NCBI GenBank assembly: GCA_036268875.1
Contig: DATATI010000032.1
Coordinates: forward strand, 1-52,277
Origin: Polyangia bacterium
GTDB taxonomy: Bacteria > Myxococcota_A > Polyangia > Fen-1088
DNA: 52,277 nt
Direction: 5' to 3'
Part shown: positions 14,780 to 48,877 of the stretch, piece by piece
Numbering within the stretch: position 1 is the stretch's first letter
Layout: each line of letters starts with the position of its first letter
Translations under genes and position numbers: made by a program
Notes under the pieces: generated by a model
What the model was told of the DNA's origin: nothing
The model's input: the letters and a program-made list of their open reading frames with translations, nothing else
Database searches by the model: none

Positions 14780-16411
14780 ATGAGCGCTTGCAGACCGCGT
14801 CGTCTTCGTTCCATCGGTGCGCTGGCCCCCTTGCTTTTGCTGGTCGCCTGCACCGGCGAGGTGGGTCCGGGTCCTGGTTCCACCGGCGGCGGCGCCGGCA
14901 CCAGCGGCAACAACGGATCCGGAGGAGGTGGGCCGGCCAGCAACGGCGGCATCGGCACCGTGGCGATCGAGAACGCCCCGGACAAAGCCATCTCGCGTCT
15001 GACCAACGCGCAGTTCATTCAATCGGCGGCGGTGCTGGTGGGCGACGCCGCGGTGATGGGCGCCGACGCGCTTTTACCCGAGCAGGATCGTCACGGCGCC
15101 TTCACCAACACTGGCTACGCCCAGGATCAGCCGTTCGATCTGATCGAATCCTACGACAGCGCCGCCAGCTACATCGTCGATCACGTCACCGACTGGACGG
15201 CGTTCCAGATGCGCTGGGGCGGGTGCACGCAGGCAACCTGCGTCAGCACCTTCCTGCGCAGCTTTGTCGAGGCGGCCTTTCGTCGCCCGGCCACCGACGC
15301 CGACGTGACGGCGTTCCAACCGATTCTGGATGCCAGCACGGCCGCCATGCTGCCCTACACCGACACCGTCAAGCTGCTGGTGCGCGCCACCCTGCAGGCG
15401 CCGGAGTTTCTCTATCTGTTCGCCGACGACATGCTGAACGACTATCAGCTGGCGGCGCGCCTTTCCTATTTCGTCAGCAACGGACCGCCGGACGATCAGC
15501 TTTACGCGGCGGCGAAGGCGCAGACGCTGCACATCCCCGCCAACCTGGACGCGCAGATTGATCGGCTGCTGGCCAAGACCGTCACCCAGTTCGCCAGCGC
15601 CTTTGCTTACGACTATCTGGATCTGCACCGCGCCACCACGCGCAACGTGACCACCGATCCGGCCACGGTGAAGCTTCTGATCAGCTCGGCGGTGAACTCG
15701 TTCGCCGCGCTGGTTGATGAGGACAAGCCGATCTCGACGATTCTCACCTTGGACACGTTCGTCACCGACCCGGCGACCGCCACCTGGACAAGCGGGCAGC
15801 CGTCGACGGCAGCCACCGTGCAGCCGAGCGCGAGCTTTCCGTTCATGGGCCTTTTGACCCACCCGGCGACGCTGATGGCGATGAGCAACGAGATCATCGG
15901 CTCGACGGTCAACCGCGGCATCTTCATCTCGAACCAGATCATGTGCGTGCCGCCGACGCCCCCGCCGCCGCCGGGCATTCAGCAGACCGACCTCAGCGCC
16001 AAGCTGCCGCCGAACCCGACCGAGCGGGACATCGGCGAGGCGCGCGTGGCCGACCCGCGCTGCCAGGGGTGTCACTCGCAGTTCGAATCGTATTCCTTCC
16101 CTTTCAACAGGTGGGGCGGCGACGGTCTTTTCAAGACCGATCCGACGTTGAAAGACAATGGACCGATCCTCACCGGCCTGGGCATGATCACGTTCAAGGG
16201 ATACGCCGATTTTCTGCCCCAGCTGGCCGGCAGCACGCAGTTCCAGCGTTGCGTCACGGATCAACTGATTCGTTACGGCCTGCAACACACCGAGTACCCG
16301 GCCGATCTGGTGGACACGGTGTTGACCGAAGCAAAGAAGCTGACGCCCGCCGTGACGTTCCGTTCGCTGATCAAGGCGCTGATTCGACAGTCCGTCTTCA
16401 CCACCCGATAG
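14780..16411 (+). CDS. DUF1592-type lipoprotein with CXXCH motif (copy 1)
   Basis: This 543-residue lipoprotein has lipobox LVAC (Cys24), a Gly/Ser/Asn linker and the DUF1587/1592/1588/1585 domain series of planctomycete and myxobacterial exported proteins. The C-terminal half has CQGCH in the RCQGCHSQFESY segment, a c-type-haem-like motif characteristic of the DUF1588 part. It also has FLRSFVEAAFRRPATDADV and QLIRYGLQHTEYPAD. Whether haem is bound is not established. I chose the ATG at 14780 because AAGGA precedes it and the signal peptide follows at once. The DUF1552 gene begins 10 bases downstream, the usual partner, so this is a two-gene operon. Function is unknown; an envelope redox or polymer-handling role is an inference. 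Confidence 0.82.
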   Translation: MSACRPRRLRSIGALAPLLLLVACTGEVGPGPGSTGGGAGTSGNNGSGGGGPASNGGIGTVAIENAPDKAISRLTNAQFIQSAAVLVGDAAVMGADALLPEQDRHGAFTNTGYAQDQPFDLIESYDSAASYIVDHVTDWTAFQMRWGGCTQATCVSTFLRSFVEAAFRRPATDADVTAFQPILDASTAAMLPYTDTVKLLVRATLQAPEFLYLFADDMLNDYQLAARLSYFVSNGPPDDQLYAAAKAQTLHIPANLDAQIDRLLAKTVTQFASAFAYDYLDLHRATTRNVTTDPATVKLLISSAVNSFAALVDEDKPISTILTLDTFVTDPATATWTSGQPSTAATVQPSASFPFMGLLTHPATLMAMSNEIIGSTVNRGIFISNQIMCVPPTPPPPPGIQQTDLSAKLPPNPTERDIGEARVADPRCQGCHSQFESYSFPFNRWGGDGLFKTDPTLKDNGPILTGLGMITFKGYADFLPQLAGSTQFQRCVTDQLIRYGLQHTEYPADLVDTVLTEAKKLTPAVTFRSLIKALIRQSVFTTR

Positions 16412-16421
16412 GAATGCAGCC

Positions 16422-17831
16422 ATGAAATATCGTCACGTTCTCAATCGGCGCACCCTCCTCAAGGCGGGCGGCATCGCCATCGGGCTGCCGTTTCTGGATT
16501 GCATGACCGAGACCAGCGTGTTCGGCGCGGCGCCCGACGCCCCGGCCAGCGTGGTCAGCCTGATGCACGGCCTGGGCACGCCGGACATCCTGCTTGACCG
16601 CGGCATCACCGGCACCATTCGCTATTACAAGCCGCTCATCGACGCCGGCAAGCTGTCCATCTTCACCAACATCGACATGACCGCCGCCGCCGATCAGCCG
16701 GTGGTGGCGCAGCACCACTACGGCCAGCCCTATCTCTTCAGCGGCTTTCGCACCCAGATCACCACCGGGTTCAACGTCATCCCGCAGGGGCCGTCGCTGC
16801 AGTGGGCGATCATGAACCAGCAGTACCCGCAGGGCTCGCCGACGCTGTTCAAGGTGATGGACTGCGGGATCTATTTTCGCCGCGGCATCAATTACCAGTA
16901 TCAACGCATCTACGACAACCAGGGAAAGAACGCCGCCGACTTTGAAGATCTGGCGTCGCCCGTCGACATGTTCGACAAGGTCTTCGGCTCGATGCCGCCG
17001 GCCATCATGCAAGATCCGAAAGCGCGGGCCTCGCGCTCGATCATCGACTATCTGATCCCCGCCTATCAGAAGTACACCCAAGCGGGCTCTCCGCTGCCGG
17101 CGCGGGACATCTCGGTCCTGAAGAATCACCTGGATCGCGTGCGCCAGCTGGAACAGGCGGTCTATGGCGGCCCGGGGATCATGCCGAAGACAATCAACGT
17201 GACCCGGCCGATGCCGCCCGACCTGAAGTACAAGATCGACGGCGCCAGCTGCGGCGATCCGGCCAACGTCTATCGGGTCAGCGCCAGCGACTTTCAGACC
17301 GCCTATCAGATCATGGCGGACCTGTTCGTGGCCGGGTTGGAGGCGGACTATTTTCGCTTCGGGAACCTGTCGTTCGATTCAGGCGGCGGCCACACCTACT
17401 TCACCGGACCGTCGCCCAATCCCGACGACGCCGGCTTCACGTTCAACGGAAATCCCCACGCCAACTATCACGTGTGGGATCCGAAGAATGCCGGCATCGT
17501 CAAGATCGCCACCGGCCACAATTTCTTCCTGCACAACAACCTCGCCCAGGTCCTGACCAAGATGGATTCGAAGGACTTCCTGGGGGCGAACGGCAAGACC
17601 GTCCTGGACAACACGCTGGTGCTGGTGGGCAGCGAGGTCGGCACCAACCACGACGTCACCCGGATGTTTCACGGCGTGGCAGGCGGCGACGGGCGATTCA
17701 AGATGGGTTTGAACAGCAACGATCGCATCAAGGCGATCGAGTTCTACAGCGCCATCGGAAAATCGTACGGCCTGACCAAGGTCGGCGACGGCCGCGGCTA
17801 CGGGTCCGACGCGACGGCAATCCTGGCCTGA
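16422..17831 (+). CDS. DUF1552 Tat-exported protein (copy 1)
   Basis: The 469-residue protein begins MKYRHVLNRRTLLKAGG, a twin-arginine signal (RRTLLK), so it is probably exported folded. The body matches the DUF1552 family: LMHGLGTPD near the start, an internal SGFRTQ region, IIDYLIPAYQKY, LDRVRQLEQAVYG, and the late HNLAQVLTKMDS and LDNTLVLVGSEVG segments. DUF1552 proteins are related to the DUF1501/alkaline-phosphatase-like fold group and almost always sit beside DUF1592 proteins, as here. No catalytic residues can be named with confidence. Confidence 0.82.
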   Translation: MKYRHVLNRRTLLKAGGIAIGLPFLDCMTETSVFGAAPDAPASVVSLMHGLGTPDILLDRGITGTIRYYKPLIDAGKLSIFTNIDMTAAADQPVVAQHHYGQPYLFSGFRTQITTGFNVIPQGPSLQWAIMNQQYPQGSPTLFKVMDCGIYFRRGINYQYQRIYDNQGKNAADFEDLASPVDMFDKVFGSMPPAIMQDPKARASRSIIDYLIPAYQKYTQAGSPLPARDISVLKNHLDRVRQLEQAVYGGPGIMPKTINVTRPMPPDLKYKIDGASCGDPANVYRVSASDFQTAYQIMADLFVAGLEADYFRFGNLSFDSGGGHTYFTGPSPNPDDAGFTFNGNPHANYHVWDPKNAGIVKIATGHNFFLHNNLAQVLTKMDSKDFLGANGKTVLDNTLVLVGSEVGTNHDVTRMFHGVAGGDGRFKMGLNSNDRIKAIEFYSAIGKSYGLTKVGDGRGYGSDATAILA

Positions 17832-43440: not shown

Positions 43441-44448
43441 ATGGCTGCGCCACGGCTGATCGTCGTCGGCGCGTCAGCCGGCGGGGTCGAAGCCCTGACG
43501 CGTTTGGTACACGGCATCCAGCCGGACATCCGCGCTCCGATCCTGGTCGTCCTGCACATCAGCGAGCAAAGCATCCTGCCCGCCATTTTGGATCGTGCCG
43601 GTCCCTTGCCGGCCGCCCACGTTCTCAACGGAGAAACGCTGCAGCCGGGCCGCATCTATGTGGCCCCACCCGGCCAACACCTCCTGGTGGACTCGTCACA
43701 CCTGTGGTTGACGCGCGGCCCGCGGGAAAACGGGCACCGGCCCGCCATTGATCCGCTGTTTCGCAGCGCCGCGCGCACCTGGCGTGATCGAGTGGTCGGG
43801 GTGCTTTTGAGCGGACAGATGGACGACGGCGTGGCAGGGCTGTACGCCATCCGCGCGCGAGGCGGCATCACGGTGGTTCAGGATCCGAAGGACGCCATCG
43901 CGTCCAGCATGCCGCAGAACGCTCTGCGGTTGGTGGACGTCAATTACTGCCTGCCGGCGGCCGAGCTCGGTCCGCTGCTGATGGAGCTGGTCAACGGAGG
44001 GACAATGGCCACCAGGCGGAAGAGACACACCAGCGCCGCGAAGACCGTGAAGAGCGGCGCGGCGCGCGTGCCGCGCATGCGCGGCTTCGGCGCCAACAAG
44101 ATCGGTGAACGCCCACGCGCATCGCCTCCGCCCGACCCAGAACAGGATCCGTTGCGCTGCCCCGATTGCAGCGGACCGCTTTATCAAGTGCCAGGCGGCG
44201 GGCCGGGGCAATGGGGCTGTCGCGAGGGCCACGTATTTTCACCCGAAAGCCTCAGCGGCGCGCAGACCGAGGCCCTGGAACGCGCATTGTGGCTGGCGGT
44301 GCGGACGATGAAAGAGCGCGCCCTCATCGATCGCTCGCTGGGCGCCGTCCCCTCCAAACCGGAGAAATTACGCACGCGCGTAATCGAGCGCGCCCAGTCC
44401 GTCGAGCACGACATCGAGCTATTACGGCAGATTCTGCAGCGGATCTGA
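43441..44448 (+). CDS. CheB-type methylesterase with C-terminal zinc-ribbon-like domain
   Basis: The 335-residue protein has a CheB catalytic domain without a receiver: nucleophile Ser12 in GASAGG, His39 in VVLHIS and Asp in SGQMDDG (128-129). After about residue 190 a basic linker leads to CPDCSGPLYQV and a GCREGHVFSPES element, a probable four-ligand metal site of CxxC and CxxxH type, and then a helix of about 60 residues. No CheR, receptor or CheA gene is nearby, so it is probably not part of a chemotaxis cluster. It starts a plus-strand unit divergent from DUF6496. Confidence 0.82.
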   Translation: MAAPRLIVVGASAGGVEALTRLVHGIQPDIRAPILVVLHISEQSILPAILDRAGPLPAAHVLNGETLQPGRIYVAPPGQHLLVDSSHLWLTRGPRENGHRPAIDPLFRSAARTWRDRVVGVLLSGQMDDGVAGLYAIRARGGITVVQDPKDAIASSMPQNALRLVDVNYCLPAAELGPLLMELVNGGTMATRRKRHTSAAKTVKSGAARVPRMRGFGANKIGERPRASPPPDPEQDPLRCPDCSGPLYQVPGGGPGQWGCREGHVFSPESLSGAQTEALERALWLAVRTMKERALIDRSLGAVPSKPEKLRTRVIERAQSVEHDIELLRQILQRI

Positions 44449-44619
44449 GCCAAGGCATTGGGGCTAGGCCATAGAGCTTCTCGCCGACTGTCACCAGCAA
44501 GGATCGTCCGTCACCCGCGCGGTACGTCGCGCTCTAGAATGTTAGCGCCCTCGCCAGTTGATCATTGTGTTCTCGCTGCTGGCATTGTCCTTGCGATTGA
44601 CTGCCGCAGGAGGGGACGA

Positions 44620-44865
44620 ATGATGACCATGACCAAGCGCAATCTTATGTTGTCGGGGGTGTTTCTGATCTCGGCGGTGGGGTTTCATAGTGCCTGCGGA
44701 GACACTGTTACTGGCACGGACTGTAAGGTGAATTGTCAGGACATCGACAACACGTGCGTGCAGAAATGCAACGACGATCAGTGCAAGACAGCTTGCTCGA
44801 CTGACCTGGACAATTGCAGCGCTTCTTGTGGGACCGTCACGGTGTCGCCGAAAGACGGCGGCTGA
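44620..44865 (+). CDS. Cys-rich lipoprotein with four CX3C motifs
   Basis: A short lipoprotein of about 80 residues. After the signal peptide the lipobox is HSAC. The mature part contains four evenly spaced CX3C units: CKVNC, CVQKC, CKTAC and CSASC, separated by six, four and six residues, with mainly Asp/Thr/Asn between. AGGAGGGG precedes the start; ATG 44620 and ATG 44623 are both possible. The regular pattern suggests either disulfide-bonded helical hairpins (as in twin-CX3C proteins) or a metal site. No homologue is recognised. Confidence 0.6.
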   Translation: MMTMTKRNLMLSGVFLISAVGFHSACGDTVTGTDCKVNCQDIDNTCVQKCNDDQCKTACSTDLDNCSASCGTVTVSPKDGG

Positions 44866-44913: not shown

Positions 44914-46509
44914 TCAACCGATGATGCCCGGCAAGGGGCCGGTGGACTGAGGTACTCCCGACTGGGAAGATGAGTGACCACTGTTCTGGCTGCCAAGGGT
45001 GGTCATGTTGACGCCGAAGACAGACGCCAGCGCCAACCAGACGTCGTTCATGGGCCGGTTTCCCGTTCCGCCCGATTGCGTTCCCAGCGACCCTCCGGTG
45101 ACTTTGACGACCGTGCCGCCATTGATGCCGGTGTTCTTGCCGCCGAATATTATGACAGGCAAGTTCCGTTGATCGTGGTCATAGGCCCGGGCGACCTCGG
45201 TGACGTATACGATGACCGTGTTATCGATCAGCATGTTGCCGTCGATGTCAGGCGTGGTGGCGAATTCCTGCAACACCTGCGAGGTCGCCGTGGAATAGAA
45301 CTGGTTCACTTGGCTCAGCCATCCTTGCGTGTTCGCATCGGTCGAGTGGCTGGGCGGATGGTGCGGGATCGCCGCCACGTTGCCGGGCAGCGACGCGCCC
45401 TGGAATGTCCCTGGGAAGACGACCCAGTCGGTGCCGGACGCCCAAAGGAACGTCGCGACCCGAACCAGGTCACACTGGAACGCGGCCTTGATCAGGCGAA
45501 GCTGCGTTTGACCGAGGTCCAGAAATGGATGGCTGCTGGGATCGTTCGGAAGGTAATAGTCAACGCCGCCCACCTTGCTGTAGTCGCCGCCATTCGTGCA
45601 ATCCTTGTCGACAGTCGTTCTACCAGTGGTCGTGTTGGCGAACGTGGGCGGCATGGCCGGCTTGACGCAGCCGCTGGTCCCTGCACCCATCCCATAGGAC
45701 TGCTTGATGCTGGCTTCGAGCTGAGAGATCGCGTTCGCGTGAGCGCCGAGGCGATCTTTCTCGCTGGCCGGGACCAGGGACTGCATGCGCTTCAAGTCCT
45801 TGTTCAGATAGCTGACGATGCTCTCCTCTCCCGCCAGCCGCTGCGCACCGGTCATGCCCGTCGGCAGGGCGCCGCCGAAAATTCGGTTGTACGTGTCCAG
45901 CGGCTGCACGGTCGGAAAAAGCGGGCTCCGCGCCTGGTCGGGCTGGCTCACCCCCTGCTTCGTGGCCAGGTAGGACAGCACGCGCGGAGCGACGTCGTCG
46001 CGATCCGAACGAATGTCGCCGCCGAGCTGCAGGGATCCGAACGGTGTCGGGTTCGCGAACTTGGGCCCGCCCAGGACCGCCGACTTATCCAGCAGAATTT
46101 GATCGATCGAAGGTCCGCCGGCGCAATGGTCTCCCGGGCCGACGATTCCGATGGTCGGAACGCCGGTCATCACGGCCACGGTCCCACCCTCGTGCGTGCC
46201 GGAACCGCCGCTCGAATCGTTGCCGCCGCCCGCGGTGACGATGTTCACCCCGTCGACCATGCACATGTACTTCTGCAGGGGCGCAAAAGGCGCGGTCTCG
46301 AACGGGAGCGTGAAGTTCTTGGTCGCGGTCGGTACCCATTTGGTCTGGTCAGGATTCGCGCCCAGCGGGTGTGAAATCACCAGCAGCCGCAGGGGCGCCG
46401 CGCCGCCGGCCGCGCGCGCCTCGATGGAGCGGAGGAGCGGGACGATGAGCGACGCAGAGGCACCGACCCCGCGTAGAAATGACCGGCGAGCGAACTTGTA
46501 AGAGATCAC
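44914..46509 (-). CDS. DUF1552 Tat-exported protein (copy 2)
   Basis: The 531-residue protein starts at GTG 46509 with MISYKFARRSFLRGVG, a twin-arginine signal (RRSFLRG). The body matches DUF1552: LRLLVISHPLGANPD at the start, then FETAPFAPLQKYMCMVDGVN, NTYNRIFGG-type and LIDNTVIVYVTEVARA elements. GGAGG stands six bases before the GTG, and the GTG overlaps the TGA of the upstream DUF1592 gene (GTGA), so translation is coupled. The longer frame to 47028 lies inside that gene and is not the real start. Partner of the DUF1592 protein, as in copy 1. Confidence 0.82.
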   Translation of the reverse strand: MISYKFARRSFLRGVGASASLIVPLLRSIEARAAGGAAPLRLLVISHPLGANPDQTKWVPTATKNFTLPFETAPFAPLQKYMCMVDGVNIVTAGGGNDSSGGSGTHEGGTVAVMTGVPTIGIVGPGDHCAGGPSIDQILLDKSAVLGGPKFANPTPFGSLQLGGDIRSDRDDVAPRVLSYLATKQGVSQPDQARSPLFPTVQPLDTYNRIFGGALPTGMTGAQRLAGEESIVSYLNKDLKRMQSLVPASEKDRLGAHANAISQLEASIKQSYGMGAGTSGCVKPAMPPTFANTTTGRTTVDKDCTNGGDYSKVGGVDYYLPNDPSSHPFLDLGQTQLRLIKAAFQCDLVRVATFLWASGTDWVVFPGTFQGASLPGNVAAIPHHPPSHSTDANTQGWLSQVNQFYSTATSQVLQEFATTPDIDGNMLIDNTVIVYVTEVARAYDHDQRNLPVIIFGGKNTGINGGTVVKVTGGSLGTQSGGTGNRPMNDVWLALASVFGVNMTTLGSQNSGHSSSQSGVPQSTGPLPGIIG

Positions 46510-48302
46510 TGGGTGCCTCCGGCGCGGGCCCGTACGAAGTTGGCCTTGAGCAAGTTCGTGAGCAGGCTCTGGATCGAGCCGTCCGTCGCCGCCCGGACGG
46601 GATTGATCTCGCAGGTGTTGTAGGTCGTGATCTGCGACCCGATGGCATAGCTCGCGAGTTGCTGGATCGAGCAACCATCGAAGTGGCCGCTGGTGATGAG
46701 GGCCTGCGCGAAAGCCTGAGCGCCCGTGACCGTCTTCGATGCCAAGGGCGCGGTGGCCGGGAACGTGGCCGTCGGGTCCACGGCGTTCCCGGCCCCGTCG
46801 CTGGTTTGAAAGTCTCCGATCGGACCGAAGTTGTCCAGGACCGACGCGTACGGATCGATCTGGCTGTGACAGGTCTGGCAGGGATCGAACTTCATGCGCG
46901 CCTGCGACTTCTGCTGTTCCGTCGTGCAGTCGGACAGCGTCTGCGTGCCGTCGGGCGATTTGCAGGCGATCACGTTCTTCGCCGAGGGCGTCGTGAGATC
47001 GATCGGCGGCGGGATCGGGTCCGCGCACACGATGTTGTCGTGGATGGCCTTGCCGCGTTTCACGATCGACATGGCTGCTGGATCTGACTGCGCCCAGAGC
47101 CAGCTCGGCTGGGTCAGCAGGCCAGCGCGACCCTGGGACGCCGGCCAGGTCGCCGCGACGAACGTCGCATCGCTCGCTGGCGCCGTGCCATTCGCGAAGG
47201 TCAGCCCCGGATACAGCGTGGCCAGACGCTGGTTGACGTAGACGGTCTGTGATGTGAGGAGGTCGTCGATCTTGCCGGAGCCCTTCCAGAGAATGTCGCT
47301 GACGAAACTCTGGGTGGAGGTCGCGAGATCGTTCTCGATCGCCATCTGGTCCTGCTCCGACATTGGCAGCGACGCAAGCAACGCCGGATCGTGCACTTTC
47401 GAGTACATCTGGCTGATGTTGAACCAGCCGAGGACGATGTTCGTGATGTTGGCCTGGACCGCCGGCAGCGCCAGCAAACGCTTGATCTGCGCCTCGATAC
47501 CCGTCGTCGTGCCCAGGCTGCCGTTGGCGGCTGCCGCCGTGAGGTCCGGGTCGGGCAGCGTGCCGAGAAGCGTGAAGCTGAGTTGACTGGCGACTTCGTA
47601 CGGCGTGAGCGTCGTAGCGGGATAGCTTCCGCTGGCGTTCGCTGTCGCCGGAGATCCAAGCTCGGTTCGGTAAACGAACGAAGGGGCCACCAGCACCGCT
47701 CGCATCACGAGCTCGATGCCCGCCTTGTATCCCTGTCCCTGCGTGGCGCCCTGGGAGTAAAGGTCGATGAGGTCGGACACCTCGGTGCTGTCGACCGGAC
47801 GCCGGTACGCCTTGGCGGCGAAGCTCTGGATGAAGCTGGTGGCGCAGGCCGTCTGGGCCGCCGCGGTCGTCCCGGCGCAGGGAGCGATGGTCGTCCCGAC
47901 CTGTCCATCGACCGATGGCGAGCCGACCGCCGTCTGCGCCACCTGGTACATGTTGTACATCATGGCGTTATCGACGCCCTTGGAGACGTCGCTGAAGAAT
48001 GCGAACGTGGCTTCACCACCGCGGGCGGTCAGCACGGGGGCCGCCGGCAGGCTCAGCAGGTCCTTGACCGCGGCGCCCCACTGCTCCGCCGAAAGCCGCC
48101 ACAGGCGCTGAGCCGGCGCCGGTAGTACCGTGCATCCGTCCGGGCCCTTCGCCGCCTGGCCGGAGCCACCTGCCCCGGCCCGAGGATCGCCAGCCGGCCC
48201 GCCGCCCGGCGTGGAACCGCCGTCGCCGATGACGCCTTGGCAGGCGGCGAGCCCGACGCAGGCAGCAAGCACCATCCCGGCCCTGGCGAAGCTGGTGCGC
48301 AC
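46506..48302 (-). CDS. DUF1592-type lipoprotein with CXXCH motif (copy 2)
   Basis: The 598-residue lipoprotein starts at GTG 48302, five bases after GAGG, with a signal ending in lipobox LAAC (Cys near 20), then a Gly/Ser/Pro linker. The DUF1592/DUF1588 domains follow: AKAYRRPVDSTEVSDLIDLY, VLVAPSFVYRTELG, and the C-terminal FDPCQTCHSQIDPY with a CQTCH haem-like motif. Its TGA overlaps the start of the DUF1552 partner. A longer frame to 48611 has no signal features. Function unknown. Confidence 0.82.
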   Translation of the reverse strand: MRTSFARAGMVLAACVGLAACQGVIGDGGSTPGGGPAGDPRAGAGGSGQAAKGPDGCTVLPAPAQRLWRLSAEQWGAAVKDLLSLPAAPVLTARGGEATFAFFSDVSKGVDNAMMYNMYQVAQTAVGSPSVDGQVGTTIAPCAGTTAAAQTACATSFIQSFAAKAYRRPVDSTEVSDLIDLYSQGATQGQGYKAGIELVMRAVLVAPSFVYRTELGSPATANASGSYPATTLTPYEVASQLSFTLLGTLPDPDLTAAAANGSLGTTTGIEAQIKRLLALPAVQANITNIVLGWFNISQMYSKVHDPALLASLPMSEQDQMAIENDLATSTQSFVSDILWKGSGKIDDLLTSQTVYVNQRLATLYPGLTFANGTAPASDATFVAATWPASQGRAGLLTQPSWLWAQSDPAAMSIVKRGKAIHDNIVCADPIPPPIDLTTPSAKNVIACKSPDGTQTLSDCTTEQQKSQARMKFDPCQTCHSQIDPYASVLDNFGPIGDFQTSDGAGNAVDPTATFPATAPLASKTVTGAQAFAQALITSGHFDGCSIQQLASYAIGSQITTYNTCEINPVRAATDGSIQSLLTNLLKANFVRARAGGTQ

Positions 48303-48561: not shown

Positions 48562-48877
48562 TTGGGTTCCCGGTTTTGTAGAGCGGACGCCGATAGCGGA
48601 ACCCTCACCATCGCCCAGGCGCGCGGCCAGTATCTGACCGGCCTGCTCGGCTGCGTCGACTGTCACTCGCCCAAATTGGCCAGCGGGGCGATCGACACCA
48701 CGAAGATGTTCTCCGGAAATGAGATCATGGACGCCTTCCGCCACGGCAAGGATCCGGAATCGGGTGCCGACGGCGGTGCGCCGACGTATCACTGACGACG
48801 CCACGGCAATCGCCGACTATCTGCTGTCGTTGCCGGCGGCGGCGAACACCATCAACGCCTGCATGGTCCGCATGTAA
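48562..48877 (+). pseudogene. Broken c-type cytochrome
   Basis: Reading from 48562, the frame is ARGQYLTGLLGCVDCHSPKL with an intact CVDCH haem motif, then GNEIMDAFRHGKDPESG. It ends at a TGA at about 48793. The expected C-terminal end of a class I cytochrome c, TDDATAIADYLLSLPAAANT, is found just downstream in another frame and ends with TAA at 48875-48877. A central piece (around the axial Met) is missing. It lies opposite the DUF1592 gene, which carries a CXXCH motif of its own. Confidence 0.6.

Follow-up and report, generated by a model that had tools for sequence, protein, structure and literature searches.

The exported DUF1592-DUF1552 gene pair described here belongs to a set of about 33 such pairs in one Polyangia genome, whose members duplicate and diverge as two-gene units. 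We tentatively favor, at somewhat less than an even chance, the reading that the pair is a haem-linked, sulfatase-fold system, duplicating as a unit and acting on surface or environmental polymers or oligomers. There is almost no literature on DUF1592 and DUF1552, yet some Myxococcota carry about 70 genes of these families while close relatives carry none.

In the window, i.e. the whole stretch of 52,277 nucleotides that was analysed, the pair lies on the minus strand. Its DUF1592 gene (46506-48302), read from the sequence and assigned with Pfam, encodes a lipoprotein of 598 amino acids with the domains PSD5-PSD4-PSCyt3-PSD2. The lipobox LAAC (48240-48251) contains Cys21, which is invariant in the DUF1592 alignment, and the sequence CQTCH (residues 475-479; 46866-46880) represents a candidate c-haem site. 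The DUF1552 (HXXSHH) gene (44914-46509), assigned in the same way, encodes a Tat-exported protein of 531 amino acids with the twin-arginine motif RRSFLR (46471-46488), whose RR is invariant in the DUF1552 alignment. Lipobox and RRSFLR motif bear out the exported two-gene unit of the original prediction, and direct sequence reading likewise agrees with its coordinates and gene starts. Hereby, both genes start with GTG, and the DUF1552 start (GTG, 46509-46507) overlaps the DUF1592 stop (TGA, 46508-46506) in a GTGA at 46506-46509, with the ribosome-binding site GGAGG at 46520-46516, six bases 5' of the GTG. In the DUF1592 protein, PSD4 (95 bits), PSD5 (75.5 bits) and PSCyt3 (66 bits) all score above the curated Pfam cut-offs (DUF1592 and PSD4-PSCyt3 families: PF07631, PF07627, PF07637, PF07624) and PSD2 just below (24.4 bits, 2.3e-5; cut-off 25.8), while the HXXSHH/DUF1552 family (PF07586) matches the partner with 125.9 bits against a cut-off of 30 (E 3.2e-36). 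The other pair in the window, also real by sequence and Pfam, is located on the plus strand and consists of a DUF1592 gene (14780-16411) and a divergent DUF1552 gene (16422-17831) with the motif HANYH and a weaker HXXSHH match (8.2e-13). None of the four proteins of the two pairs is covered by an NCBIfam family, and a sequence search of the PDB gave no meaningful matches, mostly signal-peptide regions being matched.

Scanning all 6.15 Mb of the assembly, which is 97% complete, with the Pfam profiles gave 36 matches to PSD4, spread over about 34 loci, and 34 matches to HXXSHH. The notion of a second copy, or of a system present in duplicate, thus holds inside the window but not genome-wide, and the reading as a duplicate pair was discarded. 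By adjacency, 28 pairs are tandem with DUF1592 preceding DUF1552, three have the reversed order and one is divergent; in addition, a fragment with PSD5 lies upstream of one DUF1552 gene (on C83), and another DUF1552 gene (on C9) is located at a contig end. Since 15 of the 28 tandem pairs show an ATGA or GTGA overlap, the four-nucleotide overlap is a habit of the family and no peculiarity of the window copy. In line with this, the overlap is kept in all four closest orthologues, which stem from other Myxococcota-type metagenome-assembled genomes and share 56-70% identity over the DUF1552 protein; the search for related loci used a five-member alignment. Broken DUF1592 copies, by frameshift or as a fragment, occur at C43:43856-44232 (C43:43856/43969) and C23:19521 beside otherwise intact copies.

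Pairing extends beyond this genome. Among 59 relatives, DUF1552 is present in 27 and DUF1592 in 28, both are absent from nearly all others (about 30), and the copy numbers of the two families are near-equal, e.g. 9/9, 24/25, 12/13 and 3/3. In 16 low-copy relatives, PSD4 adjoins 34 of the 42 HXXSHH matches listed, 30 in the same order, the remaining eight being without a partner among the matches listed. Homologues are thus usually paired, which was the check that the original prediction had named. For 31 pairs of this genome, the protein distances of DUF1592 and DUF1552 are closely correlated (Mantel r 0.88, null standard deviation 0.05, r reached by 0 of 5000 permutations), and 25 of the 31 pairs have the same nearest neighbor in both distance matrices. 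Therefore, the cassettes duplicate and diverge as units which rarely swap partners. At the level of the sequences compared, the matching distances are a sign of shared duplication and not, by themselves, proof of physical contact. Within one taxonomic family (this genome and relatives G001-G017), genera hold either no copies, as is the case for two, or about 9-40. Such jumps from 0 to 30-40 copies, along with a few broken copies (C43:43856/43969, C23:19521), would fit a neutral amplification, in which the expansion reflects drift by duplication without diversified function. We consider this quite improbable, as nearly all copies are intact although deeply diverged (median identity 25-31%), and as pairing, export signals and pocket residues are retained.

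The AlphaFold model of the DUF1552 protein (pLDDT 64, i.e. of middling confidence; pTM 0.75) resembles one superfamily of known structures. Using Foldseek, all 50 of the 50 matches listed belong to the sulfatase/phosphatase superfamily, all of them being sulfatases, phosphonate hydrolases or lipoteichoic-acid synthases. Structural alignment with VIA-align matches the model to the phosphonate monoester hydrolase 4uph (Z 16.9, 290 residues, rmsd 4.5), with 459 chains at a Z of at least 8. At the profile level, and thus independently of the model, DUF1552 matches DUF1501 in hhalign with 96.3% (E 1.7e-9) across 297 columns once the signal peptides are trimmed, compared to 0.1% for a reversed control, and the HXXSHH model and the DUF1501 model each match one open reading frame of a relative (G003:C414). 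Against the sulfatase profile, DUF1501 reaches 85% and DUF1552 59%. These sulfatase matches lie on the C-terminal segment, in which IDNTVIVYVTE438 (residues 428-438; 45196-45228) aligns with the sulfatase metal-site motif DNTxIVVxxDHG. Model and profiles together point to a predicted alkaline-phosphatase/sulfatase superfamily fold for DUF1552, related to DUF1501 and tied weakly to sulfatases by profile. Of the earlier statement that the family function is unknown, the part concerning enzymatic function stands, whereas DUF1552 now has a superfamily fold assignment.

Sulfatases employ a Cys or Ser (or Thr) nucleophile within the motif CxPSRxxLxTG as well as an Asp-Asp metal motif. Based on spacing and established sulfatase knowledge, we take this nucleophile motif to correspond to H106-EGGTVAVMTG of DUF1552, so that His106 (46192-46194), which is common to DUF1501, would occupy the place of the nucleophile. 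His is found at this position in 27 of 31 paralogues, and strand 1 is not followed by the usual Asp pair but ends HPxG-like and not with DD. Hence, DUF1552 has the predicted superfamily fold without its catalytic set. Compared to superfamily members (PDB 4uph, 5fql, 6hhm), DUF1552 shares the fold (Z about 17) and the C-terminal DNTxIVxxSD/E motif but lacks the nucleophile and the strand-1 Asp pair, and instead shows an HXXSH pocket. The HHPPSH motif of the window copy (residues 383-388; 45346-45363) contains this HXXSH signature as HPPSH followed by Ser, as compared to H-x-x-S-H-H in the family, and HxxSH occurs in 18 of the 31 paralogues. Ser134 is kept in 27, Asp136 in 28 and each of His384, His388 and His445 in 30 of the 31, with an acidic residue at position 438 in 22. 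A conserved His-rich pocket formed by H106, S134, D136, H384, H388, acidic residue 438 and H445 may thus replace the usual sulfatase site. In some close orthologues the pocket erodes, with A or S at position 106 and HYPPLSS in place of the motif.

Such a rebuilt site could still cleave sulfate or phosphate esters, with DUF1592 acting as anchor only. The superfamily fold and the register of the metal motif would be in keeping with an active sulfatase- or phosphatase-like hydrolase, as would the sulfatase genes that adjoin PSCyt genes in Verrucomicrobia (PMC5615132), but His in place of the Cys/Ser/Thr nucleophile in most copies and the missing strand-1 Asp pair render this improbable. The missing nucleophile and Asp-Asp metal motif, like the loss of pocket residues in some orthologues, would rather suit a DUF1552 pseudo-enzyme which binds a sugar or anion next to a haem-free, disulfide-bonded DUF1592 anchor, i.e. 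a SusD-like capture device, whose specificity would also match the very high copy number. This alternative is possible though somewhat unlikely, since 30 of the 31 paralogues retain H384, H388 and H445 at a median identity of about 25%, seemingly beyond the needs of binding, and since Tat export is compatible with cofactor loading.

A single C-x2-C-H is present in 28 of 31 DUF1592 paralogues, while the other three, which fall into one clade of this genome (L075, L076 and L079; C36:37345, C72:49502 and C79:38186), carry C-x3-C-H (CSTACH, CAIACH, CAKACH). The latter spacing arose independently in one orthologue (L096, CADNCH). In the DUF1592 alignment, four Cys are conserved along with the His of the motif, one Cys being shifted in the CX3CH copies, and the motif's CH does not vary. 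Given that all 31 paralogues carry C-x2/3-C-H and that the genome encodes three cytochrome c assembly proteins, haem is likely, and the motif suggests DUF1592 as a candidate carrier of c-type haem. The alignment contains no invariant distal Met or His as sixth ligand, so that, together with the variable CX3CH spacing, the Cys pair could be structural. Four conserved Cys and the CX3CH variants are indeed compatible with the disulfides of a haem-free anchor, but a disulfide needs no His, and the CH is invariant. The AlphaFold model of DUF1592 is all-alpha (pLDDT 78, pTM 0.79); compared with PDB folds, the cytochrome c fold included, nothing exceeds a Z of 5.4, and phycobilisome linkers, which reach just this level, were not accepted as relatives.

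In a profile comparison, the C-terminal part of DUF1592 matches CxxCH proteins that adjoin DUF1501 genes in relatives (97.4%, E 1.4e-11). The two kinds of pair, DUF1592-DUF1552 and CxxCH-DUF1501, thus seem to share homology as whole pairs. Profiles of canonical DUF1800 do not match those of DUF1592, and the relationship is therefore claimed only for the CxxCH proteins sitting beside DUF1501.

For the preferred haem-linked, sulfatase-fold pair we envisage the following mechanism. Translational coupling would yield equal amounts of DUF1592 and DUF1552; the DUF1592 lipoprotein would bind c-type haem and anchor its folded partner at an envelope membrane; the former sulfatase site of DUF1552 would accommodate a metal, an anionic or sugar substrate, or both, and electrons would travel via the DUF1592 haem. 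Cell-surface or environmental polysaccharides and oligosaccharides would be the likely substrates, and the copy number might mirror different substrates, comparable to SusC/D expansions. Less in keeping with this, no carbohydrate-binding domain was detected in the paralogues scanned with Pfam, and a genome neighborhood comparison did not find a conserved CAZyme neighborhood around the pairs. A farther-reaching version, which we regard as unlikely, sees in the c-haem lipoprotein and its alkaline-phosphatase-fold partner a new enzyme system, in which the sulfatase site has been rebuilt as a His-rich, possibly metal-binding redox site, with dozens of substrate-specific versions per genome and with DUF1501 partners as part of one exported-pair superfamily.

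Related arrangements have been described, so that the pair is not undescribed in the full sense of the original prediction: both the PSCyt3 pairing of Verrucomicrobia (PMC5615132) and the DUF1800-DUF1501 operon (PMC5122149) were already reported. PSCyt3-encoding genes of freshwater Verrucomicrobia usually have unknown genes of one family as neighbors (He et al. 2017, PMC5615132) and, like the present loci, place a PSD/PSCyt3 protein beside an uncharacterised family, with each genome holding many copies. In contrast, the pairs described here occur in Myxococcota, are mostly tandem and often overlap by four nucleotides. Moreover, PSCyt proteins of Verrucomicrobia bear carbohydrate-binding modules as fusions (PMC5615132), whereas the present lipoproteins lack such domains in those scanned; DUF1552 is unnamed in the main text of that study. 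DUF1800-DUF1501, an operon pair found in chitin-synthase operons (PMC5122149), is alike in its two-gene layout and export, DUF1501 being Tat-exported and homologous to DUF1552, but differs in its chitin synthase association and in that canonical DUF1800 (L113, L117) shows neither CXXCH nor a DUF1592 profile match.

A third parallel, which also gives the best outside hint at a function, is provided by Cbp2D of Cellvibrio japonicus, in which DUF1587 adjoins an X132 region containing a single CXXCH (PMC8981238, figure 1). Growth on insoluble cellulose requires Cbp2D (PMC12542752). For X132 there is no characterised homologue (PMC10916295), and a CBM2-linked DUF1592 protein of Cellvibrio appears in a meta-omics survey of a lignocellulose community (PMC6004670). 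As DUF1587 is the first domain in many DUF1592 proteins of this genome according to Pfam, X132 probably equals the DUF1592 region. The X132 module of Cbp2D and TERTU_3803 (PMC8981238, PMC10916295) resembles the present lipoproteins in combining DUF1587 with a one-CXXCH region and in being secreted, but it is part of large multi-domain proteins for which a DUF1552 partner is not reported. The X183 haem domain of Cbp2D, a protein with the related X132/DUF1587 region, acts as a reductant of lytic polysaccharide monooxygenases (LPMOs; PMC8981238), so that the pair might serve as electron donor for LPMOs, as proposed for Cbp2D. We give this only a very slim chance: LPMO_10 is absent from this genome, where LPMO feeding is thus unlikely, and occurs in only two of 18 relatives despite high pair numbers, and DUF1552 would be left without a role. 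The DUF1592/DUF1552 families and the pairing of PSCyt3 had been known before; the literature searched contains no description of how numerous the pairs are in Myxococcota, of their co-duplication or of the superfamily placement. With DUF1552 placed beside DUF1501 in the sulfatase superfamily, duplication as a unit and the link to Cbp2D, these "planctomycete-specific" domains become testable by ordinary biochemistry.

Regarding the surroundings of the pairs, a generally conserved third gene was ruled out by neighborhood comparison, a Vgb-like propeller being confined to one clade. Hereby, a Vgb_lyase-type beta-propeller gene is located directly downstream of four DUF1552 genes (C68:22239, C11:9153, C80:49163 and C9:2190), which form one clade and three of which are in complete pairs; the genome contains five strong Vgb-like beta-propeller genes, four of which adjoin this clade. 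In the window, a frameshift-broken remnant of a gene for a monohaem cytochrome c (ARGQYLTGLLGCVDCHSPKLASGAIDTT...) is found just upstream of the pair at 48577-48870 on the plus strand. On the other side, the pair and a CheB-like gene (43441-44448) flank a small Cys-rich open frame (DCKVNCQDIDNTCVQKCNDDQCKTACS; 44458-44865, plus strand), which resembles a short secreted Cys-rich lipoprotein.
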